Shown one piece after another: positions 13,103-38,649 of a stretch of 40,285 bases of DNA. Every line of letters starts with the position of its first letter. Within the stretch, counting starts at the first letter, position 1. Below the pieces are notes generated by a model, which had not been told where the DNA came from, searched no databases, and saw nothing but the letters and a program-made list of their open reading frames with translations. A program made the translations under genes and the position numbers. The stretch is from positions 1 to 40,285 of IMG/VR virus record IMGVR_UViG_3300021964_000170; one strand, 5' to 3'. The DNA is from a virus.

Positions 13103-16100
13103 ATGGCAAACGTAGAAATTACACAAGAAGACTTAGACATTTTCAATTCTGTATTTGAAAAGCCTGACGAACAACAAATTGATACCGCCATAACAGATCC
13201 TTTATCTGCTACACAAGACGGTTATCAGTTTGAACGTGCCGCTACTCTGACAGGCGAAGAGGAAGACTACAAAGCTAAAATACTTAGCAATGAGTCTGTT
13301 ATGGCCGCAATGCGTAGGTATATGTATGATCGTTTTGGCGAAGATGGTAAACAAGAAGATGCTGAAACAGACGAAGATTTCTATGATAGGTACATGAATC
13401 ATCATAGATATATGACAACTAACAGCTATTCATTGGGTAAAGAAATTAGTTTCTTACGTGATGCTTCACCTGAGACCAAGCAAGCGATGGGTACTGTATA
13501 TTCATATATAGAAAATAATGCACCTGAGTTATATGAGCAACACTTAGGTGACGCAGGTAACAGTTTTCTAGACTATGCTAGCGCTGTTATTACTGACCCA
13601 TTAAATTTTGCTCAGGCTTTAATAGCTGGTGCATTTACTGGTGGTGCAGGTGCGCCTATAGCTATAGGTGCTAGTCGTGCAGCAGCTAGTCAAATTATTA
13701 AGAAAGCTATCACCGTTAACGTATTAGGTGCGAATCTATCTAAGCATGGTCTTAGAGGCACTGTATCTCATGCAGCATTAGGTGCTGCACAGGGTTCTCT
13801 TGAAAACGCTATGCTTCAAGAAATGGAAATGCAGGGTAAGGTACAGTTAGTAGAAGATGAAAACGGTAACTTAAAGTATGAAGTAGATCCAGATCTAAAC
13901 TATGAAGATATGCACACGGACATGAACAGTGTAATTATGCAGGGCGGTTTTGGTGCGCTGTTAGGTGGTGTTGAAGGTTTAGTAGCAGGTCGTGCCGCTA
14001 AGAGACAGACACTAAATTACTACAACAATTTTGTTAAAGCTAGATTTGGTCAGATTGATAATGAGCTTACAGTAGAAAAGCTTCTTGTAGATGCAGTAAC
14101 TAATGACCCTGTACAGGGTGATGTAACAGGGCGTTTATTAAAGGCTACAGATCTTGAAACAGAAGCTGCTAAAGACGCGGCTGACACTGTTGATACTATC
14201 AAGAAACATATAGGGCTAGATGAAACCACTGGTGTAAACCCTAATGCAGATGCAGATAGGCGTTTACTTGATTCGATTGGTACTGAGACAGACAGTGAAC
14301 CGTTTACACAAGCACAGCTTCGGGTCGATATATCTAAAAAGATGGGCGGCATTGTTACAGATATTGTAGAACTTAAAATAAAAGAATTTGACGATGCTGC
14401 TAAAATGGGTTTACCCCAAACAGAAGATGCTCTCACTAAAATTATTCTTGATGGTGTAACTGCATCTAAACGTAATGACAATGTAGCTACAGACTTGATT
14501 GTAGATATTTATAAATACATACGTGACAAATCCTTAAACGCTACAAGAGATGAAGACGGCGTTGATGAAGTTATGAGCCTACTAGAAGCAACGGGTAGGG
14601 TAGACGACTTTGTTGACATACTTAAAAAGTTTTCAGACAAGACGTTTGAAGGTGACGAGATGTATAACGCTGTACTAAAAGCGTTTGATGAAACTATGTC
14701 TCAGGCAGGGCGCACACTTAATGTACCTTCTCGGTTAGGTAGGGTATTAAAAGAGCATGGTTCTTTAAATAGAAAACAGCGTAAGATGCTTAATGATTAC
14801 TTTAGTTCTGTAGATGGTACACAACTTACGTATGAATCTCTGTATGATATGTATAATAAGTTTGGACGGTTTAGACGTTCGATGATGACTATCACTCCAG
14901 CTACTACAGCACGTAACATATTCTCTGGCTTAACAAATATAACATTTGCTACAGGTGCAAACGCTATTGAGTCTATTGTATTTAATATAGGTAGAGTTGC
15001 TAGAGATAAAGACTTTACTTTTGGTAATGGCTTGCGTGATATTTGGTTAGATAGCTCTGGTCTATTACTTAATCTCTGGAGATCAAACGCTACAGGTGCT
15101 AGAGCTTTTATAGATTTAGCGTTGGTAAATGATCCCGCTTTAACACGTAGATTATTTAGAAACAATGCAGAGTTTGGTGAAGGCAAAAATCTTCCCGCCG
15201 TAGCTAATTTCTTAAACGGTTTAAATATAGCATCAGATGGTTTCTTTCGTAGATCTTTGTTTGCATACGAGCTTGACAAAAGCTTTAGACGTGCAGGTAT
15301 CAAAGAAGGTATGAATGATGTTCTACTATCTGGCAAAACAATACCATCAAAGTTTCTACAACAAGCTGCTGAAGATACATTGAAAGGTACTTTCAGTTAT
15401 AGCTTTAAGAAAGGCAAAGGTGTATCAGAAGATATTGCAGCTACTACAATAGACTTTATTGAGAAGATACCAATGGGTACTGTCGTATTCCCATTTGCTA
15501 GATTTATGTTTAACGCAATGGCATTTCAATATCAATACAGCCCGTTGAATACAGCTATGAATGCTGTTCAGGCTATTACTACTGCCACAGCTAACTTAGG
15601 CCGTAAGGCAGATCAGAAAAAAGCTATTGATTACGCAAGTCTTAATCGTTCGTTTAGTAGAGGTATGGTAGGTACAGCTGCACTGTATGCCGCTATGCGT
15701 ATGAGATCTGACCAACAAGAGAATCCTTACTGGAAACTACGTATCGGTGATTCCGATGTTGATACACGGCCTTTATTTCCACTAGCTCCATACCTACTTG
15801 TTGCTGACTTGATACTTAAAACACAGGGTATGACTGAAGAACAGATAAAAGTTAATCTTAAAAACGGAATGAGAGGCCAAGCAATAACGGAAGGTGGTCC
15901 GACTACAGGACTATCCGACATAGCTGAAGCCATTGCAGGTTTGAATATGCGTGCTACAGGACAGCTACCTATGTTTGAAGCGCTGTTTAGTTTAGCGCAA
16001 CAAGACGAGACAGGCGGTTACTTTGGTGAAGATAAAGTTGGTACAGCAGTAGGGCAATTCTTTTCTGCCTATGTCAAGTCTCCATTTGTAGGAACAAACT

Positions 16101-32786: not shown

Positions 32787-33178
32787 CTCATTATTACTCC
32801 TATGTCTTTGTGGTCTGCGTAGAATATGTGATCGCCTATCTGCCCCAACTCATAGAAGTCAACGGACCAGTATGGCTGGACGTATGTGGCATGATAGTGT
32901 GTCGCCCCCATGTTCTCATACGGATGGTCATAGGCATCTATGACTGCTTGCTGTGCTGCCTTCCATGCACGTTTGTCTCTTGGTCTTTCAGGTTTACCGT
33001 CCCAATAGAATGAGAATTGATGGCGTTCCTTCACCACTTCACACACTGTATCGGGAAAGCCCCAATGATCTACACGATTTTGTATGACATGCACCACCTG
33101 CCGCTGACCTTCCGGCGGCTGATTACGTGCTTCATAGTACACGGCCAACGCCGCACACAGAAAAGATGCAGTAAGCAT
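32783..33178 (-). CDS. SleB/CwlJ-type cell wall hydrolase
   Basis: 131 residues. The Hydrolase_2 pattern is clear: AVYYEARNQPPEGQRQVVHV (E16 candidate catalytic), QFSFYWDG (54-61), ATHYHATYVQPYW (92-104) and GDHIFY (115-120). The N-terminus MLTASFLCAALAVYY is hydrophobic and could act as a short signal or anchor, although in this family it is also part of the fold. It would cut the glycan backbone of peptidoglycan (lytic transglycosylase-like). It is the second lysin of this phage, in the early region; a role in entry, superinfection or lysis cannot be chosen from sequence. Confidence 0.8.
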   Translation of the reverse strand: MLTASFLCAALAVYYEARNQPPEGQRQVVHVIQNRVDHWGFPDTVCEVVKERHQFSFYWDGKPERPRDKRAWKAAQQAVIDAYDHPYENMGATHYHATYVQPYWSVDFYELGQIGDHIFYADHKDIGVIMR

Positions 33179-33212
33179 ATGTCACTCCATTAAAGTTATT
33201 GGTCGGACAATC

Positions 33213-33446
33213 TCAATATCTATTCCACCCGTTGTAGCCCATGATCTTAGGTAGTCTGTCGCCTTCTTCAGAGCGATCAAACTCCTTTGCAAACTTAAAT
33301 TCTACCTTCGCGTCTGGGTAGCAGGACTGAACAATATCTCCAGCCCTACAGATAGCCGTGTCAAAGTCCATGTTATAGACTTCGACTTTAGTGTCATGCA
33401 CTTCGTCAATACGAAAGTGTACTTCGTGTGTGTTACTGTACATCAT
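33213..33446 (-). CDS. Small hypothetical protein, 77 aa
   Basis: GAAGGAAT precedes the ATG at 33446; a second ATG follows at once. The sequence is beta-alpha: HEVHFRIDEVHDTKVEVYN, then DFDTAICRAGDIVQSCYP, then DAKVEFKF. No family recognised. The first copy of the 17-base hairpin family stands 16 bases upstream of its ATG. Confidence 0.6.
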   Translation of the reverse strand: MMYSNTHEVHFRIDEVHDTKVEVYNMDFDTAICRAGDIVQSCYPDAKVEFKFAKEFDRSEEGDRLPKIMGYNGWNRY

Positions 33447-33462
33447 TTGATTCCTTCTGATT

Positions 33463-33479
33463 GGTCCAATCGTTGGACC
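33463..33479 (-). repeat. Intercistronic hairpin, family copy 1
   Basis: Minus strand GGTCCAA-CGA-TTGGACC: seven perfect pairs around a three-base loop. It lies between the stop of the 102-aa gene (33500) and the RBS of the 77-aa gene (ATG 33446). It is one of five related elements (33463, 34851, 36416, 36735, 37736). Confidence 0.8.
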
Positions 33480-33499
33480 GTTTGTAACTACCTTTACCC

Positions 33500-33808
33500 T
33501 TACGCGGCCTTACGACTGCGGGTTTTCTTAGTCGTAGGCTTTTTGCTGGTATGTTTGGTGGTCTCACGATAGACCCGTGAGTAGCCCGGTCCTTCTTCAA
33601 TGCAGTATATACCTCTCTGTAACATGGGATCACGGTGACGCTTGCTATATGGGTAGTAGAGTACCCACTTCCCGTCCGTCACCTTCATGTAATGCTCAAG
33701 CGACTCCACTTTGTAGCCACTAGAATGGATGTTCTCCCGTACAATACGGGGAGCCATACGTTTGATCCTGTAATTTATTAGCTGTAGTTTTACTTTTAAA
33801 AAGCTCAT
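33500..33808 (-). CDS. Basic hypothetical protein, 102 aa
   Basis: The ATG at 33808 has AAAGGAG at good spacing; an in-frame TTG upstream would overlap the Api92-like gene. A basic helical start (MSFLKVKLQLINYRIKRMAPRIVRENI) is followed by a beta part (DGKWVLYYPYSKRHRDP) and a very basic end (TSKKPTTKKTRSRKAA) suited to nucleic-acid binding. No family recognised. Confidence 0.6.
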   Translation of the reverse strand: MSFLKVKLQLINYRIKRMAPRIVRENIHSSGYKVESLEHYMKVTDGKWVLYYPYSKRHRDPMLQRGIYCIEEGPGYSRVYRETTKHTSKKPTTKKTRSRKAA

Positions 33809-33821
33809 TGTCAAATCTCCT

Positions 33822-34274
33822 TTATGCACATTCTTTTTGGTCAATGTCTATGTCGAGCATCATGCTCACCATAGTTGCAGCACCAGAGTCCCGCATGTCG
33901 TCACCATCTTCATAGAACCCATACAGGTCCATCATTGTGTCAGCATAGGCTGCGGATACACGAAGTCCCAAACGGAATAGATGATCCCATACAGGCTGCG
34001 GTGCAGTGTTAGCTGTGTTGCATGTGAACGTCAGCTTACCAGTGTCGTTGTCATAAGTCTTGAGTGTGACGTCGCTTATATCGGAAACTTCCCATTTAGT
34101 ACCCCAATTTAGTATAGTCCAATCCCTCCAGCCATCATCCAGAGATGAAGCATGTACGAAGGGCATAGGTAAAACAGTATTGCAAAACTCTTTTTTATGT
34201 AAGCCACCCTGTAGGTGTCGTAGTCGTACTATGTCACCCCTGATAACTACTTTTTGTTGTACCCAATTTGGCAT
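33822..34274 (-). CDS. Api92/YubB-like ferredoxin-fold protein
   Basis: 150 residues starting MPNWVQQKVVIRGD, the start of the Api92/DUF1281 family (MPNW, then a beta strand ending in G). LNWGTKWEVSD and TCNTANTAPQPVWDHLFRLG are further family features. The canonical cysteine after MPNW is Val here. The fold is ferredoxin-like; function unproven, common on plasmids and phages. Strong SD (AGGAGAG). Confidence 0.72.
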   Translation of the reverse strand: MPNWVQQKVVIRGDIVRLRHLQGGLHKKEFCNTVLPMPFVHASSLDDGWRDWTILNWGTKWEVSDISDVTLKTYDNDTGKLTFTCNTANTAPQPVWDHLFRLGLRVSAAYADTMMDLYGFYEDGDDMRDSGAATMVSMMLDIDIDQKECA

Positions 34275-34292
34275 GTCATATCTCTCCTGTAA

Positions 34293-34523
34293 TTAAACGT
34301 CAAAAAAATCGTCGTATTCAACTTCGTCAGTCCACAATATTACTCGTGGATATTGTTTTTTTAAGTTTCTCAGGTTTTTTATTTTAGATTTCATTAGCTT
34401 TCTATAGACTCTAGTTTCTTTACGTAGCTCATCAATTTCATTTAAAAGATTGAGCATCTTGTCGCCCATCTTTTTGTCTTTGTCGGGCGCAAAAACAAAG
34501 TTTACTGTCTCGCTAGTCCACAT
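34293..34523 (-). CDS. Coiled-coil protein, 76 aa
   Basis: Helical and charged: KMLNLLNEIDELRKETRVYRKLMKSKIKNLRNLKKQY, with a short beta end (RVILWTDEVEYDDFFDV). TAGGAG precedes the start. No family recognised. Confidence 0.55.
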   Translation of the reverse strand: MWTSETVNFVFAPDKDKKMGDKMLNLLNEIDELRKETRVYRKLMKSKIKNLRNLKKQYPRVILWTDEVEYDDFFDV

Positions 34524-34533
34524 GCATTGTCTC

Positions 34534-34611
34534 CTATATGATGTTGAGTGCTAACGCTATGTTGATGGCTAACGTAGCCACCATGCCGATAAGAATTAAT
34601 TCCGTACCCAT
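34534..34611 (-). CDS. Tiny membrane peptide, 25 aa
   Basis: ATG at 34611 overlaps the upstream stop by one base (TAATG); TAG at 34536-34534. Product MGTELILIGM then VATLAINIALALNII: hydrophobic almost throughout, one membrane span. No independent SD, so translation would depend on the upstream gene. Length makes this tentative. Confidence 0.42.
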   Translation of the reverse strand: MGTELILIGMVATLAINIALALNII

Positions 34612-34832
34612 TATGCCACTAGCTCCAACTCTCCCTGTACAGGCTGACGTTCTGGTACACGAGCGCAGAGCTTGTCCCAGTTATCGTAGCGAGACATGAA
34701 TACTTTAGCTACCTTTCTAGTCTTGAATGGGACTTGCATGTATAGCCTGCCTTCCCCATAAAGATTAACTACGTAGACAGGGCCACTCTTGAAAGGCCGT
34801 GTGGCATAGATGTTTTGATTATTTAAAGTCAT
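34611..34832 (-). CDS. Small hypothetical protein, 73 aa
   Basis: AAAGGAGAG precedes the ATG at 34832. A beta-rich basic core (GPVYVVNLYGEGRLYMQVPFKTRKVAKVFMSRYDNWDKLC) ends in QGELELVA. No family recognised. Hairpin copy 2 stands 18 bases upstream of its ATG, directly after the stop of the GP88 gene. Confidence 0.6.
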   Translation of the reverse strand: MTLNNQNIYATRPFKSGPVYVVNLYGEGRLYMQVPFKTRKVAKVFMSRYDNWDKLCARVPERQPVQGELELVA

Positions 34833-34850
34833 GTATACTCTCCTTTGAAT

Positions 34851-34867
34851 GGTCCAACCGTTGGACC
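34851..34867 (-). repeat. Intercistronic hairpin, family copy 2
   Basis: Minus strand GGTCCAA-CGG-TTGGACC, seven perfect pairs. It starts one base after the TAA of the GP88 gene and ends ahead of the AAAGGAGAG of the next gene. Confidence 0.82.
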
Positions 34868-34868
34868 G

Positions 34869-35486
34869 TTAGTGTAATGGATAGACTACGTGCTGCACGT
34901 TACTGTCCCAACAGTCACGGCATGTACCGCATGAGTTGCCGTTGTCACGAGCGAAACATGTAACCGTAGACTTGTCTTGAGATACTCCAGACGTATTGGC
35001 ATAGTTAGGTGTTTTGCCGTTAATCTTAGATGCACTCAATCGAATTGTTAGATTAGCTGGTATCTCTCCCGTGTAGGCTTTGAGTATGTCACGCTCTTGT
35101 GTAGGCAACCAATGACGTACATTAGGCGTCATGCGGCATACTTGTACAATGGCGTCGAGCATCTCAACTGATTGCAAGTCACCACTGTCAAACCAACGAT
35201 GGTAGCCATCGCTGTTGTAACGGATGATCTGGAAAGCCATAGCTTGTGACCATTGCTCCGGCTCACTGGCTTCCCATTTAGCTAGATTGGCCTTCCACCC
35301 CTGATCGACTGATGGGCGTAGCTTCTGCAAGCGACGGGCATAGCAGCTATAGCACGGCGTACCTTTCACCTTCGCAAGCTTCGAGCCTGTCTTGCAAGCA
35401 AAGGCGTCGATGGCAAACGTAGTGCCGGGCATCTTCGTGTTACCAGTAGATACATTGCCAAATTGTTTAGCTTCTTTAACTAGCAT
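34869..35486 (-). CDS. GP88-family cysteine-rich protein
   Basis: 205 residues with the GP88 family pattern: KMPGTTFAIDAFACKTGSKL, GTPCYSCYARR, the aromatic block YHRWFDSGDLQSVEML, RHWLPTQER and a cysteine-rich end. Cysteines C31, C45, C48, C177, C186, C189 and C192 could hold a metal or Fe-S centre. The family is named for a mycobacteriophage gene; its function is not established. It abuts the PP-loop gene upstream with no spacer, and both begin with the same 12 bases (ATGCTAGTTAAA). Confidence 0.75.
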   Translation of the reverse strand: MLVKEAKQFGNVSTGNTKMPGTTFAIDAFACKTGSKLAKVKGTPCYSCYARRLQKLRPSVDQGWKANLAKWEASEPEQWSQAMAFQIIRYNSDGYHRWFDSGDLQSVEMLDAIVQVCRMTPNVRHWLPTQERDILKAYTGEIPANLTIRLSASKINGKTPNYANTSGVSQDKSTVTCFARDNGNSCGTCRDCWDSNVQHVVYPLH

Positions 35487-36245
35487 CTATTCTCTCTCTT
35501 CACAAAATATTCCGCAATCTATTTCGTATTCCTTCATAGCTCTACCTTTAGCCTTCGGATCTAAGTCTTCTAGTTGTATGCGTTTACCTTTAACTAAAAC
35601 AAGTTTAGCTCCAATCTGTTTTGATTGTTCCAAACGATCTTGGAAAGTGTCTGGGTACATCTTGCGGACGTGATTCCAGTATGTAGGCGAACTAGCTTTA
35701 ACACAACCAATGCAGTTTGCATTCGGTAAACCATTTAAATAAGCCTCCGGTAATTTTATGCCTGCATCTTGTATAACGTCAAAGCACGCTTGCTTGTCGA
35801 AGCCACAATTTATTAATGGTGTTAATAAACTTTCTCTTTCTGTTAGCCTAAACCTATCTGCTCTTTTCGCTTCATCCGCCGTGAATCCCAAAACGGTCCA
35901 GTCAGGCTTATGAATTTCTTCCCACTCCTGTCTCGGTTTTTTCTTCAGTTCATACGTGCATGGCGCACCAGCAACACCTGACATATATTTTCTCTTATCC
36001 CAAACTTCTTTGACAGATTGGTTAGGGAAAGTTTTAGATGTCACATGCTGGATAGGATATTGTAGCCACTCAGACACATCCCGTAGAAATCTCTGATTAT
36101 CTTCATCTTCTTCTAGAATGGGATTATTTAGAATGTGTATTTCATTAGTATCTTTGTACATATCCAAAGTTATCTTTGCAGCAACAGCACTAGCTGCACC
36201 ACATGAAAACCATACAGCAATCTTTTGACCGGGTTTAACTAGCAT
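35487..36245 (-). CDS. PAPS reductase-like PP-loop ATPase
   Basis: 252 residues. A PP-loop at residues 12-20 (WFSCGAASA, a variant of SGGxDS) and the later segments VLGFTADEAKRADRF and NANCIGCVKASSPTYWNHVRK place it in the adenine nucleotide alpha-hydrolase / PAPS reductase group. C96, C178, C181, C244 and C248 could bind metal or sulphur. Members adenylate or sulphurate diverse substrates, including DNA (DndC) and tRNA; phage members are mostly uncharacterised. It is translationally linked to a 53-aa gene upstream and a GP88 gene downstream. Confidence 0.75.
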   Translation of the reverse strand: MLVKPGQKIAVWFSCGAASAVAAKITLDMYKDTNEIHILNNPILEEDEDNQRFLRDVSEWLQYPIQHVTSKTFPNQSVKEVWDKRKYMSGVAGAPCTYELKKKPRQEWEEIHKPDWTVLGFTADEAKRADRFRLTERESLLTPLINCGFDKQACFDVIQDAGIKLPEAYLNGLPNANCIGCVKASSPTYWNHVRKMYPDTFQDRLEQSKQIGAKLVLVKGKRIQLEDLDPKAKGRAMKEYEIDCGIFCEERE

Positions 36246-36396
36246 CTTCGTATCTCACTACGATGTCAAAAGAAATATTCTTTGGGTTCTTTCCCAAATC
36301 TAAAAGATAAGTGTATACGAAATCGTCTATCAACCCGCTCTCCGGGTCAGCCCATGTTTGAACCTGTTGCATCGTAACTTTTTTTGCTTGATCCAT
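36235..36396 (-). CDS. Small hypothetical protein, 53 aa
   Basis: ATG at 36396 with AAGGAGAG upstream; TAA at 36237-36235, overlapping the PP-loop gene start by 11 bases. Product MDQAKKVTMQQVQTWADPES ... LIDDFVYTYLLDLGKNP ... SFDIVVRYEDAS. It looks like a small alpha-beta fold. No family recognised. It heads the three-gene cassette with the PP-loop and GP88 genes, and hairpin copy 3 stands 19 bases before its ATG. Confidence 0.65.
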   Translation of the reverse strand: MDQAKKVTMQQVQTWADPESGLIDDFVYTYLLDLGKNPKNISFDIVVRYEDAS

Positions 36397-36415
36397 GTAA
36401 ACTCTCCTTCGGAAT

Positions 36416-36432
36416 GGTCCAACCGTTGGACC
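36416..36432 (-). repeat. Intercistronic hairpin, family copy 3
   Basis: Minus strand GGTCCAA-CGG-TTGGACC, identical in its 17 bases to copy 2. Flanks are also alike: AAAC before and ATTC after, then an AAGGAGAG RBS. Confidence 0.82.
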
Positions 36433-36442
36433 GTTTAAGGTG

Positions 36443-36493
36443 GTCTAAGTATATACACTCTTCACTACGTTAAGAGAGTGTATAGACTAAGAC
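36443..36493 (-). repeat. Long imperfect inverted repeat (arms of about 20 bases)
   Basis: Arms at 36443-36462 and 36472-36493 pair along GTCT-AGT-TATACACTCT-TT with two mismatches and a two-base bulge; the loop is nine bases (36463-36471). It fills most of the 104-base gap between the 68-aa and 53-aa genes. On the minus strand an SD-like TAGGAGG leads into it but no ATG follows. There is no U-run after it, so a plain intrinsic terminator is unlikely. Confidence 0.7.
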
Positions 36494-36500
36494 CTCCTAA

Positions 36501-36707
36501 CTAAAGCAAATTGGCAAGAGCATTGTCAAGCTCTGTCTCAAACTTTTTTTGGGCTTGCTTCTCAAGCCACTCACGTTTGCGGCCTTCGGCTATGATGTCC
36601 AGTCTATGCCATTCGGGTTGCTTGCCATCTTCGATGCCATGCAGAATGTCAAACCGAGCAAAGTTAGAGCGGATCTTAGGACCGAAGGTCTTGATGTGGG
36701 TTCGCAT
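36501..36707 (-). CDS. Basic small protein, 68 aa
   Basis: The ATG at 36707 is preferred because GGAG lies 7 bases upstream; an in-frame ATG two codons earlier is only one base from that SD. Product MRTHIKTFGPKIRSNFARFDILHG ... EWHRLDIIAEGRKREWLEKQAQKKFETELDNALANLL: helical, basic, possible nucleic-acid binder. No family recognised. Hairpin copy 4 lies upstream. Confidence 0.58.
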   Translation of the reverse strand: MRTHIKTFGPKIRSNFARFDILHGIEDGKQPEWHRLDIIAEGRKREWLEKQAQKKFETELDNALANLL

Positions 36708-36734
36708 AATCATTCTCCGAATGGAAGGCTGAAC

Positions 36735-36767
36735 AGTCCAATCGCTGGACCGTTCAACCGTAGGTTG
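36735..36767 (-). repeat. Intercistronic hairpin, family copy 4, with a second hairpin beside it
   Basis: Copy 4 spans 36735-36751, minus strand GGTCCAG-CGA-TTGGACT. Two positions that differ from copies 2 and 3 form G-U pairs in minus-strand RNA, and flanking GAAC/GTTC extends the stem. A separate CAACC-TAC-GGTTG hairpin occupies 36755-36767 just after the stop of the 195-aa gene. Confidence 0.75.
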
Positions 36768-36770
36768 GAA

Positions 36771-37358
36771 TTAGGCTGAGATAGCAACTACGTTGGTAGC
36801 TTTCTCGTCCTGACGCTGCATGGCAGCAGAGAGGTGAGCCATCATCTCTTCAACCGCTTTGCGGTCTTTAGCGACTGACAGGATTAGCGTAGCTAATTGC
36901 TTGCCGTCTAAGCTGTTAGGTTCTATCGAACCTGTTGCAGCTTTGCCGTCACTAGCTTTGCTAGACTTAGTGTCGTTGTCACTGGAAGCCGTAGGCTTAA
37001 CAGTAGCTTTCTTCCAATCGGCTAGAAGCCGAGTAGTGTGATTGCCTTTCCACTTTGTGGACTTGATGAAGTCCTGAATCTCTACGAGATTGGTAGCGAG
37101 TTGTACAGCGTCGGAACGACGCCGCTTGTCGATGTTGGCAACTCCAGCTTGTGATAACAAGCCAGACTTCGCTTTGCCTTTCAGGCCATGCTGTTCGGCA
37201 AGCTTGTTCAATTCCATTAGGAATTTACCCAACCGAACGTCGATTGACTTTCCTTCCAGAATTGCTTTAGCAAAGGCTCCGTCGAATTGACGAATAGCTT
37301 TAGCTATAAACTTACCTTCGGTAACGACTTCGGCGTTGAGAGTGATTTGGTTTGTCAT
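36771..37358 (-). CDS. First leftward early gene, hypothetical protein, 195 aa
   Basis: AAAGGAC precedes the ATG at 37358. The N-terminal half is helical and basic (GKFIAKAIRQFDGAFAKAILEGKSIDVRLGKFLMELNKLAEQHGLKGK ... ANIDKRRRSDAVQLATNL). A Ser/Thr/Lys-rich linker lies at about 118-145 (TASSDNDTKSSKASDGK), followed by a second helical segment (GKQLATLILSVAKDRKAVEEMMAHLSAAMQ). The layout suggests a two-domain DNA-associated protein. No family recognised. As the first gene after the structured control region it is a candidate early regulator. Confidence 0.65.
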   Translation of the reverse strand: MTNQITLNAEVVTEGKFIAKAIRQFDGAFAKAILEGKSIDVRLGKFLMELNKLAEQHGLKGKAKSGLLSQAGVANIDKRRRSDAVQLATNLVEIQDFIKSTKWKGNHTTRLLADWKKATVKPTASSDNDTKSSKASDGKAATGSIEPNSLDGKQLATLILSVAKDRKAVEEMMAHLSAAMQRQDEKATNVVAISA

Positions 37359-37439
37359 GGTACTAAGTCCTTTCTAAGTTTTATGTCTTTCACTAAAGTT
37401 CAAGACAGAAAACGTAAGAAAGGACGTAAGGGGTTCTGA

Positions 37440-37860
37440 GTTGGAGCTTGAAGGGTAGCTGGCAATCGAAGATTGCTGTGCATGTGCGATCTTCGGCGCA
37501 GGTCGTTTCGTTGCGGTTGCAGGATTTACAAGTAAATCCGAAACTCGTGCGCTAAACTCGCGAGACTGAGCCAACCGAATTGGTGATGGTAGGGTAGGAC
37601 AGCTAAAGCTGTATTCCAACATCTGATACTTCGACACCTTCAGTGTCGCATGGTCGGATTCGGTCTGAGATATCTGGAGGAATTGTAAATTCCTTGGAGT
37701 ATTTGAATAAATCCTTAACTCTCAATGAGTTAAACAGTCCAACGATTGGACCGATTGCTGCTCTCATGCATACGGCAACGCTTACGCATCATACGCACCA
37801 TTGCCGCGCGCACATATGAGAGAGGGGACGGGCATGGGCCACCCCCGGGTGTGACGTTAT
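37440..37860 (-). ncRNA. Candidate structured leader RNA or non-coding RNA with many hairpins
   Basis: No convincing gene occupies 37359-38204. In 37440-37860, inverted repeats follow one another: GCAATC/GATTGC (37462-37476), GGATTTAC/GTAAATCC (37522-37539), ACAGCT/AGCTGT (37599-37612), CGACAC/GTGTCG (37632-37648), AGGAATT/AATTCCT (37678-37694), TTAACTC/GAGTTAA (37715-37733), hairpin copy 5 (37736-37752) and CACCC/GGGTG (37840-37851). A nested pair CTCTCAT/ATGAGAG (37761-37767 with 37816-37822) encloses CGGCAA/TTGCCG (37773-37778 with 37801-37806). ACCGAAT (37574-37580) and ATTCGGT (37658-37664) could close a multibranch loop around two of the hairpins. If transcribed leftward it is the leader of the early operon; the strand is inferred. 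Confidence 0.5.
37736..37752 (-). repeat. Hairpin family copy 5, inside the leader
   Basis: Minus strand GGTCCAA-TCG-TTGGACT: six Watson-Crick pairs and one G-U, extended by an outer C-G pair. Unlike copies 1-4 it is not next to a start codon; it lies about 380 bases before the first leftward ATG. Confidence 0.75.
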
Positions 37861-38029
37861 TGTGTATGTACCCCTACACAGATCAGGTTTTTTATACTGT
37901 TAACCACTTATGTATTTAAGCGCTGTTATATAAAGCTGGAAAGTGTTGCATTTGTGAAACAGTATTGAGTTTGTGTACCTTATATGTGTGTCTTTTATGC
38001 AACAGTTTATATTTATTTTACGATACCGA
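37861..38029. promoter_or_regulatory. AT-rich part of the divergent control region; weak leftward promoter candidate
   Basis: This stretch has no gene. It begins with the hairpin TGTGTA/TACACA (37861-37880), followed by a six-T run at 37888-37893. On the minus strand, TATAAA (37896-37891) with TTAAAT (37919-37914) 17 bases upstream is the best -10/-35 pair I can find for the leftward operon, and the -35 match is poor. The AT-rich composition would also suit a replication origin, but I see no clear iteron array. Confidence 0.35.
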
Positions 38030-38058
38030 TTGACACGGCGGGGTAAATCGGGTATAAT
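38030..38058 (+). promoter_or_regulatory. Perfect consensus sigma70 promoter, rightward
   Basis: TTGACA at 38030-38035 and TATAAT at 38053-38058, separated by exactly 17 bases. Both hexamers match the consensus completely. Predicted start near 38065. It points to the 38205-40285 genes and presumably to the packaging and late genes beyond. It would be used by host RNA polymerase without a phage factor. Confidence 0.85.
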
Positions 38059-38074
38059 TATAGAAACTTAGGAC

Positions 38075-38142
38075 AGTGTTACAACACTAATGTTAAAACA
38101 TTTATAATTTATTAACTTAATAATACTTAAACATTAAATGTT
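38075..38142 (+). repeat. Nested inverted repeats just downstream of the strong promoter
   Basis: AGTGTT-AC-AACACT at 38075-38088 lies about 10 bases after the expected start site. Further on, AACATTTA (38097-38104) pairs with TAAATGTT (38135-38142), and between them TTATTAA-C-TTAATAA (38109-38123) forms an inner palindrome. They could be operators for a repressor or RNA hairpins in the leader. Confidence 0.6.
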
Positions 38143-38152
38143 ATAACGCTGA

Positions 38153-38178
38153 GTACAGTATATATCTGTACATATAAT
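38153..38178 (+). promoter_or_regulatory. Second rightward -10 element with an adjoining operator-like palindrome
   Basis: GTACAG (38153-38158) and CTGTAC (38166-38171) form a perfect palindrome with a seven-base AT spacer. TATAAT follows at 38173-38178, with only a weak -35 (TGAGTA, 17 bases upstream). A palindrome filling the spacer ahead of a -10 is a common operator position. Transcripts from it would start about 20 bases before the first ATG. Confidence 0.5.
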
Positions 38179-38204
38179 AAATAAATCCCATATCCGTATT
38201 GACA

Positions 38205-38411
38205 ATGCAAAACAAATCCGTAAAACTATGTCCAGAAACTAATATTCTAGATAGTTTCTATCAAGCTATCGTATCAGATAACTTACGTAGCTTACATCTG
38301 TATCATTCTGACGTGCATTATATCCGTGCTGCTTTACAAGAGCGCACGGGTAAAACATTTAAGCTGTCAGAGATTGAAGAAGCCTTAGAGGAATTTAACA
38401 ATGGCACGTAA
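38205..38411 (+). CDS. Small hypothetical protein, 68 aa
   Basis: The ATG at 38205 is chosen; a TTG two codons earlier is possible. Neither has a visible SD, which is unusual for this genome. Product MQNKSVKLCPETNILDSFYQAIVSDNLRSLHLYHSDVHYIRAALQERTGKTFKLSEIEEALEEF: helical. It overlaps the next gene by 11 bases. It is the first gene after the rightward promoters, where regulatory proteins often sit, but no family is recognised. Confidence 0.6.
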   Translation: MQNKSVKLCPETNILDSFYQAIVSDNLRSLHLYHSDVHYIRAALQERTGKTFKLSEIEEALEEFNNGT

Positions 38412-38649
38412 ACCTTTACCGCCCGGTGTAACCATTGGTGACGTAAACGAAGCTGGTGGCAATCCTATGGAACGAGTACCCAGAAATCCCCGTAAAGATT
38501 CTGCTGACGTACCGCGTAGACCGCACAGCGTTACTATTCATCAGTATGAAGACGGTGGTTATGTATGTGCGCCTAATCAACGTACAGGTAACATAGACAT
38601 GCGTAAAGACAAAGGCATGGTACGTCATACTCGTAATAATTTAAAGTAG
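38401..38649 (+). CDS. Basic hypothetical protein, 82 aa
   Basis: ATG inside the end of the upstream gene. Proline- and arginine-rich, largely disordered-looking (RKPLPPGVTIGDVNEAGG, VPRNPRKDSADVPRRPHSVTI) with a short beta stretch (HQYEDGGYVCAP). No family recognised. Confidence 0.55.
   Translation: MARKPLPPGVTIGDVNEAGGNPMERVPRNPRKDSADVPRRPHSVTIHQYEDGGYVCAPNQRTGNIDMRKDKGMVRHTRNNLK

Follow-up and report, generated by a model that had tools for sequence, protein, structure and literature searches.

What is the role of five nearly identical palindromes spaced along the early, leftward-transcribed strand of a phage genome? The question is raised by a 40,285-base virus record (IMG/VR IMGVR_UViG_3300021964_000170), analyzed over its whole length and hereafter called the window. 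It covers part of the genome of an HMO-2011-type phage, a member of one of the most abundant phage groups in the ocean. Its DNA polymerase shares 62–63% identity with the polymerases of Puniceispirillum phage HMO-2011 and of the Roseobacter phages CRP-345 and CRP-1, and further matches cover HMO-2011-type gene content (integrase, primase, DnaB-like helicase, endonuclease, ribonucleotide reductase and thymidylate synthase). The 11 annotated relatives that we retrieved are 52.7–55.3 kb long; thus, ~14 kb is apparently absent from the window. We propose that the palindromes are probably dyad DNA operators of gp01, the 195-amino acid product of the gene that opens the leftward early cluster (36771–37358, minus strand) and a putative palindrome binder, which would act as an early-gene repressor or roadblock.

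Palindromes in the Window

The pattern GGTCCAA-N3-TTGGACC occurs, as an earlier note on this DNA had described, at 33463–33479 (copy 1, GGTCCAATCGTTGGACC), 34851–34867 (copy 2, GGTCCAACCGTTGGACC), 36416–36432 (copy 3, also GGTCCAACCGTTGGACC), 36735–36751 (copy 4, AGTCCAATCGCTGGACC) and 37736–37752 (copy 5, AGTCCAACGATTGGACC), with 0, 0, 0, 2 and 1 departures, respectively. In 100 dinucleotide shuffles, matches with up to 3 mismatches averaged 0.98 and never reached five (maximum, 3). A motif-free search for identical 6-base arms found a maximum of 4 copies in the window and of 2 in 30 shuffles. The five-copy family was confirmed. One further GTCC-N7-GGAC, at 15897 inside a virion gene, has no inner AA/TT and is probably a chance occurrence.

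Copies 1–4 are intercistronic, as described, and lie 16, 18, 19 and 21 nucleotides (nt), respectively, 5′ of the start codons of the leftward genes at 33213–33446, 34611–34832, 36235–36396 and 36501–36713 (all on the minus strand). Copy 2 is 1 nt past the stop codon of a GP88-family gene (34869–35486), and copy 4 is 19 nt past the end of gp01. Unlike these, copy 5 has no link to a start codon; it lies 377 nt 5′ of the gp01 start and is the apparent counterpart of a site that relatives carry ~300 nt upstream of gp01. Read on the plus strand, its centre (CGA) and AAAC flank are closer to those of copies 1 and 4.

Palindrome Families in Related Phages

The motif of the window (up to 2 mismatches) had a single match in each of 4 of 40 relative records and was repeated in none. 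The exact pattern retrieved 100 stretches from IMG/VR, with one site in each of the 80 listed; we set these aside as probably mostly chance palindromes, because they are single sites and only 11 scattered matches to window proteins occurred among the 100. A motif-free search for repeats (6-base arms, spacer 0–8, at least 3 copies) covered 166 sequences of at least 4 kb, comprising the window and loci from L105 on, with the same contig sometimes included twice. It identified repeated palindromes in 23 of the 166 sequences, many of which stop short of the early region, and in none of 166 shuffled ones. The families included GTCCAA-N2-TTGGAC (CRP-345, CRP-1 and others), GTCCGA-N2-TCGGAC and AGTCCG-N4-CGGACT (HMO-2011), as well as TCCCAA-N1, ATTTAC-N2, TTGCTA-N2 and TTCTAG-N5-CTAGAA. 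Many copies were ~20 nt ahead of an ATG and some were within genes. Locus L235, in which the early region is present, had no repeated palindrome even by a looser search.

GTCC-N6-GGAC is the commonest form in the relatives, the window having N7. We sorted 359 unique GTCC-N6-GGAC sites into 157 start-linked sites, 57 within gp01, 47 upstream of gp01 (100–420 nt before the gene) and 98 others. With distances of 12–33 nt admitted, 124 of 158 start-linked sites ended 19–23 nt ahead of the start codon, a tight distance that may reflect no more than how closely stop codon, site, ribosome-binding site and start are packed.

Association of the Sites With gp01

Homologs of gp01 are the first genes of CRP-1 and CRP-345 and were also found in L253, L271 and HMO-2011 (gp74; 63 bits, E = 7.4e-11). 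As a single query gp01 had no match in IMG/VR; a 5-sequence alignment succeeded and gave 142 relatives, of which the best 80, some near-identical, were kept. Searched against annotated phages, a consensus-like protein matched CRP-345 and CRP-1 only, the HMO-2011 homolog needing a profile. Peptide patterns of gp01 retrieved 81 stretches from bacterial and archaeal genomes, and a gp01 relative was confirmed in none of them.

All 80 kept gp01 loci carry GTCC-N6-GGAC at two or more sites and 76 at three or more, for a total of 433. Over the same loci, one base shuffle per locus yielded 1 site and a control palindrome, CCTG-N6-CAGG, yielded 9. When half-site spacings of 2–12 were examined, 433 of 476 cases had a spacing of 6. 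At the gp01 locus itself, the sites lie ~300 nt upstream and within the codons of the linker. Among 15 long or complete genomes, five encode gp01 (CRP-345, CRP-1, HMO-2011, G020 and G026), and the same five carry the sites (5 or 6 each); CRP-345 and CRP-1 were part of the search alignment and the other three were outside it. Free shuffling would produce this agreement once in 3003 by our own arithmetic, a figure that overstates the link because the genomes are related. L235/G030, a close relative with an 80% ortholog of 38199–38411, has neither gp01 nor sites. The same is true of CRP-3, for which PMC6918029 reports lysogeny, so lysogeny across the wider group does not require the gp01-site system.

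Across 36 records, gp01 was present in 8, at least one site in 12 and both in 7. The gp01-bearing exception, G010, has GCTCTA sites in place of GTCC; those with sites and no gp01 are G009 and G036, fragments with 5 sites each, and G007, G022 and G025, with 1–2 sites. A comparison of 167 loci (from polymerase, primase and GP88 searches plus annotated stretches) was not used to test the link, since the majority are short or lack the end with gp01; it contained 5 loci with gp01 and at least 3 sites, 6 with sites only and 156 with neither. Of the six with sites only, two (HMO-2011 and L147) do encode gp01 when the full record is considered; the others, L248, L260 and the single contig L124/L246, start or stop close to the first site. 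The earlier note had listed the product of 36771–37358 among possible protein partners, and the co-occurrence with the sites supports gp01 as a candidate, with the standing of a predicted binder.

Joint Change of Helix and Half-Site

In G010, the GCTCTA-N2-TAGAGC palindrome is present in five exact copies, 18–23 nt ahead of ATGs, and in a sixth copy, CTCTAGCTAGAG, 206 nt before gp01. A second contig (L367), with a gp01 82% identical, carries four GCTCTA-type palindromes. The gp01 segment GIxxIDRRRRSEALWFVEN reads G(I/L)DKVSSALRSEWVWFVQN in the GCTCTA clade, with the changes D77S, R79A, R80L and A84W. In GTCC phages, R80 and R81 are conserved in each of 88 gp01 proteins (window included, near-duplicates retained), which supports a correspondence between helix and half-site. 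Further, the gp01 of the window, whose sites have an extra base between the half-sites, is the only one of 90 in which QL replaces WF at 86–87; the only other departure at these positions is DF, in HMO-2011. Both links, of helix with half-site and of QL with spacing, are correlations based on one event each. The DIPKQRR helix of L271 was considered as the cause of GTCCGA half-sites and ruled out: other GTCCGA phages have the common helix.

The tie of the sites to gp01 presence and helix type bears on the suggestion that the palindromes are module boundary sequences, kept by inter-phage recombination without any regulatory role. The location of many sites at the 5′ edge of small genes would suit such a role, but sites also occur in gp01 and its leader, and the dyad is conserved. 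We therefore regard boundary sequences as a highly improbable explanation.

An AlphaFold2 model of gp01 (42 sequences; mean pLDDT 77.7) has a helical domain (residues 9–119), a linker (124–146) and C-terminal helices (152–193). Helices 62–71 and 78–89, separated by a turn, have the spacing of a helix-turn-helix, and helix 78–89, which carries R80 and R81, is the putative recognition helix. A second model, of the N-terminal domain of a homolog, returned the identical helix order at lower confidence (mean 74.3). Searches of the PDB gave no match to gp01 by sequence and no confident one by fold; scores were low, the best being for VIA (Z 4.6), and neither this nor the LEAFY DNA-binding domain (Z 3.2–3.6 over 100–105 residues) was above background. 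TetR regulators, like LEAFY, appeared at low Z only. The best match in BFVD was S4S2E1 (E = 4.1e-4), whose length equals that of HMO-2011 gp74, and the best family match was Dodecin, obtained with the L271 homolog at an E value of 8.8e-4 and below the Pfam cut-off.

DNA Dyad or RNA Hairpin

The earlier note favored an RNA element over a DNA operator, given the fixed place relative to start codons and the departures in copies 4 and 5, which form G·U pairs in minus-strand RNA and A·C mismatches in plus-strand RNA. The wobble arithmetic is correct (−6.4 and −6.6 kcal/mol for the minus-strand and −5.8 and −6.0 kcal/mol for the plus-strand RNA), and the strand difference in folding energy is small. 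In this reading, every early cistron would carry a hairpin in its 5′ leader, to which gp01 or a host factor would bind to control translation or stability. The window copies do fold in sense RNA, at −6.4 to −8.3 kcal/mol; the five one-sided transitions at the innermost pair of the sites are all G·U in the sense RNA, with no A·C; and the tight distance to start codons also suits an RNA or translational role. The early-strand family and its fixed distance to start codons stand, whereas the hairpin itself is weakened by A·C pairs and by sites away from start codons.

The A·C pairs are at −1/+14, next to the GTCC/GGAC core. In the sense RNA of 157 start-linked sites this pair is A·C in 60% and G·U in 4%, which is the reverse of the wobble argument. 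The corresponding values are 70% and 0% for the 57 sites within gp01 and 26% and 21% for the 47 upstream sites. Hence, substitutions in the relatives break sense pairing at −1/+14 of start-linked sites, and not at the innermost pair; such pairing-breaking substitutions were among the findings that the earlier note had named as refuting its own reading. The next position, −2/+15, is mostly unpaired (complementary in 20% of start-linked sites), yet an A/T dyad is conserved beyond it: complementarity at −3/+16, −4/+17 and −5/+18 of start-linked sites is 75, 63 and 56%, respectively, vs. 46, 46 and 49% expected from the columns, and −3/+16 is complementary in 74% of the sites within gp01 (53% expected). 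The asymmetric centre is found in both orientations (start-linked, TG 86 and CA 26; upstream, CA 23 and TG 11), and the sites in gp01 codons and those ~300 nt before the gene are away from start codons. The pairing pattern and the centre orientations fit what would be expected of a dyad DNA site. The palindrome family of L133 has a like layout and no RNA fold (20-base piece), though L133 lacks gp01. On balance, an RNA hairpin is an unlikely explanation for the palindromes.

Hairpins can also act as promoters. Those of phage N4 have a 7-bp stem and a 3-base loop, and the window copies share this stem and loop size and a position just ahead of start codons, as if each served a phage or virion RNA polymerase and yielded a short-leader mRNA. 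Against this stand the different spacers (2 and 4) of other members, the symmetric flanks, the sites in gp01 codons and the part of the sites that follow sigma70-like promoters. Moreover, no RNA polymerase domain was found with Pfam in the 5 window proteins scanned, the window being short by ~14 kb. N4-like promoters are, in consequence, a very remote prospect.

Promoters and the Direction of Control

A sigma70-like pair of hexamers is present within 100 nt upstream of 61 of the 158 start-linked sites (mean of 18 and maximum of 28 in base shuffles). For 48 of the 158, the stop codon of a frame at least 40 codons long lies immediately upstream; a promoter-like pair is also present at 4 of these, and 53 sites have neither feature. 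A ACTTTAGTGAA-type block is found upstream of 44 of the 158 and, in the examples that we read, between the hexamers. In the window, a candidate leftward early promoter (TTGTAA-16-TATAAT; 38057–38084, minus strand), recognized by consensus match, would place copy 5 ~300 nt inside the leftward transcript. It is overlapped by a rightward TTGACA-17-TATAAT (38030–38058), and this divergent pair constitutes the strong matches of the window. The conserved block upstream of the 44 sites (in ACTTTAGTGAAAGT-type form), itself an imperfect dyad, lies 40–63 nt before sites in L106, L260, L280, L349 and others and may be the site of another regulator.

The sigma70-like pairs are not occluded by the sites, as could also be the case if gp01 bound DNA for activation, antitermination, ParB- or centromere-like spreading or DNA organization. 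Sites of the parS type are similar in form to multiple scattered 16-bp palindromes such as these. However, the palindromes are placed by the start codons of early genes and none of 7 gp01 proteins matched the ParB family, and we judge a DNA role other than repression to be improbable.

Several further observations weigh against gp01 operators and repression, in addition to the innermost pair and the start-codon distance. The −10 hexamers are at scattered distances from the sites, −10-like hexamers taken by themselves show no clear concentration at −34 to −14 (56 of 158 vs. 22, 45 and 14 elsewhere), and the window's own sites have 8 promoter matches vs. 10.2 expected. Among the upstream sites, the dyad of the flanks is weak (−3/+16 complementary in 53%; 44% expected). 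The invariance of R80 and R81 in GTCC phages is partly ascertained because one of the two search peptide patterns contains RR. The switch to GCTCTA concerns a single clade that was noticed as an exception, although both members compared agree, and other conserved gp01 residues, D40 and G44 by eye, also differ in it. Phages with GTCCAA and GTCCGA are not separable by the gp01 helix. The helix-turn-helix is read from helix positions, because no family or fold gave a convincing match to gp01, and it is the placement of the sites that argues for repression over activation or DNA partition.

Proposed Mode of Action

Given the families, their placement, the tie to gp01 and the one clade in which helix and half-site changed together, we infer that gp01 binds the palindromes as a dimer and represses as a roadblock. 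Each palindrome would consist of two GTCCAA half-sites with A/T flanks, separated by 3 bp in the window phage and by 2 bp in almost every relative. As the product of the first early gene, gp01 would contact the site through its predicted helix-turn-helix, whose second helix carries R80 and R81, and would dimerize probably via the C-terminal helices. The protein could then sit ahead of early cistrons and in its own leader, as well as within its own gene in many relatives. Some sites appear to lie downstream of sigma70-like promoters, and others in gaps between co-directional genes that leave little space for a promoter; at either, bound gp01 may stop or slow the host RNA polymerase, at copy 5 possibly also from a distance. 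Such a roadblock would limit early transcription by feedback, like the stoperators of L5-like phages.

A Structured Leader and Other Repeats

Between copy 5 and gp01 lies a leader (37450–37599, minus strand) that appears to be a conserved, covarying structured RNA. A strict motif found it in 51 of 85 gp01 loci, the source of the aligned sequences. The alignment (A6) has 14 pairs and 29 sequences, namely the window and 28 of 29 non-redundant loci (L310 was left out). Paired cells amount to 98.8% (84.7% in shuffles), cells changed on both sides to 60 (15.8 in shuffles) and covariation to 0.419 (0.144 in shuffles and up to 0.085 in slid versions). Pairs with a double change (7 vs. 5.7) and pair types (13 vs. 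14.5) were not above shuffles, and the outer GUUU/AAAC helix is invariant. Rfam had no match to the leader at gathering scores in L278, L330, L356 and L340, nor in the window at 33000–38600. The sole Rfam hit in this part of the window, mir-504 (E = 0.57), was due to chance and covered an inverted repeat seen by eye at 36452–36484 (TATACACTCT and AGAGTGTATA, with 13 bases between the arms). This repeat lies upstream of copy 3, in the intergenic space that separates 36501–36713 from 36235–36396.

Other repeats were observed in the relatives. In the GP88-bearing loci L211 (3205–11328) and L225, TTCTAGAAATTCTAGAA is repeated seven or six times, with a one-base difference in one form, and a gp01-like gene (L211:3568–4221; E 0.1–0.2, not significant) directly follows the first copy. 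Judged from its arrangement, the layout is as in the window with a different specificity. L133 (126–2407), of an HMO-2011-type phage without gp01, has five copies of AAATTTACTGGTAAATATTT, the first followed by a gene for 253 amino acids with a gp01-like build (domain, low-complexity linker and C-terminal part). Longer repeated hairpins (TAGTAAC-N5-GTTACTA and AGTATC-N4-GATACT) in the GP88-bearing L207, L208, L214, L231 and L230 have bulges, and their outer arms seemingly change together (by eye); they look more RNA-like than those of the window. Finally, GTCCAAGGTTGGAC occurs in coding sequence at L289:11721, L296:12674, L321:12637, CRP-1 6868 and CRP-345 7079, the gene being the integrase in the last two. 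Because the encoded context is similar, it may reflect a protein constraint or a kept site.

Comparison With Known Systems and Implications

Searches of the open-licence literature on palindromes, promoters, operators and inverted repeats of HMO-2011-type phages, including passages of PMC6918029 and PMC4981710, turned up no mention of these sites. The nearest likeness is to the Extended Start-Associated Sequences (ESAS) of cluster K mycobacteriophages. As described by Pope et al. (2011; PMC3203893), the ESAS (see also the survey in PMC12699233) are inverted repeats just upstream of the start codons of non-structural genes, with subcluster-specific sequence, whose departures fail mRNA pairing and so favor a DNA-binding protein. 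According to PMC11373665, the ESAS of Adephagia have a SigA-like promoter and the identity of the regulator is called unclear. An inverted repeat upstream of start codons is likewise found in copies 1–4 of the window and in 157 of 359 sites of the relatives. However, the half-sites here are 6–7 bp with a spacer of 2–3 bp, whereas the two papers (PMC3203893, PMC11373665) give ESAS half-repeats of 17 bp (15 bp in Adephagia), a spacer of 4–14 bp and an adjoining 13-bp SAS. With up to 2 mismatches allowed, the window has no match to the SAS consensus, GGGATAGGAGCCC. Sigma70-like pairs accompany 61 of the 158 sites of the relatives and, above chance, none of those of the window, and a candidate regulator, gp01, was found here.

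The stoperators of cluster A mycobacteriophages (L5, TipsytheTRex) are, according to PMC9283540, asymmetric 13-mers that are bound by a monomer and act in one orientation. They resemble the palindromes in being numerous, in lying in short gaps between genes as well as at promoters, in relying on one phage protein and in having a specificity that evolves between phages; they differ in that the sites of the window and its relatives are symmetric dyads with the centre in both orientations. Compared with the stoperator repressor (L5 gp71 and that of TipsytheTRex), gp01 is encoded on the early strand and has no sequence match to solved structures and no confident fold match.

Operators of the Cro/CI type are phage-specific dyads of 14–17 bp, bound by dimeric helix-turn-helix proteins that autoregulate. 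In contrast to these, the sites described here are spread cistron by cistron rather than clustered at one divergent promoter, and gp01 has no match to Cro/CI-type families. By analogy, the window element would act like ESAS and stoperators yet is a member of neither.

It is conceivable, if somewhat short of an even chance, that gp01 is the founding member of a new family of DNA-binding regulators of phages, which would control early genes cistron by cistron via start-linked dyads, together with sites in the regulator's own leader and coding sequence, and be accompanied by an undescribed leader RNA. If so, half-site specificity and spacing would diverge between related phages, so that co-infecting relatives could be regulated separately. 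It would also provide a concrete candidate regulator for start-linked inverted repeats, a kind of element that, according to PMC3203893, has been known in mycobacteriophages since 2011 without one.

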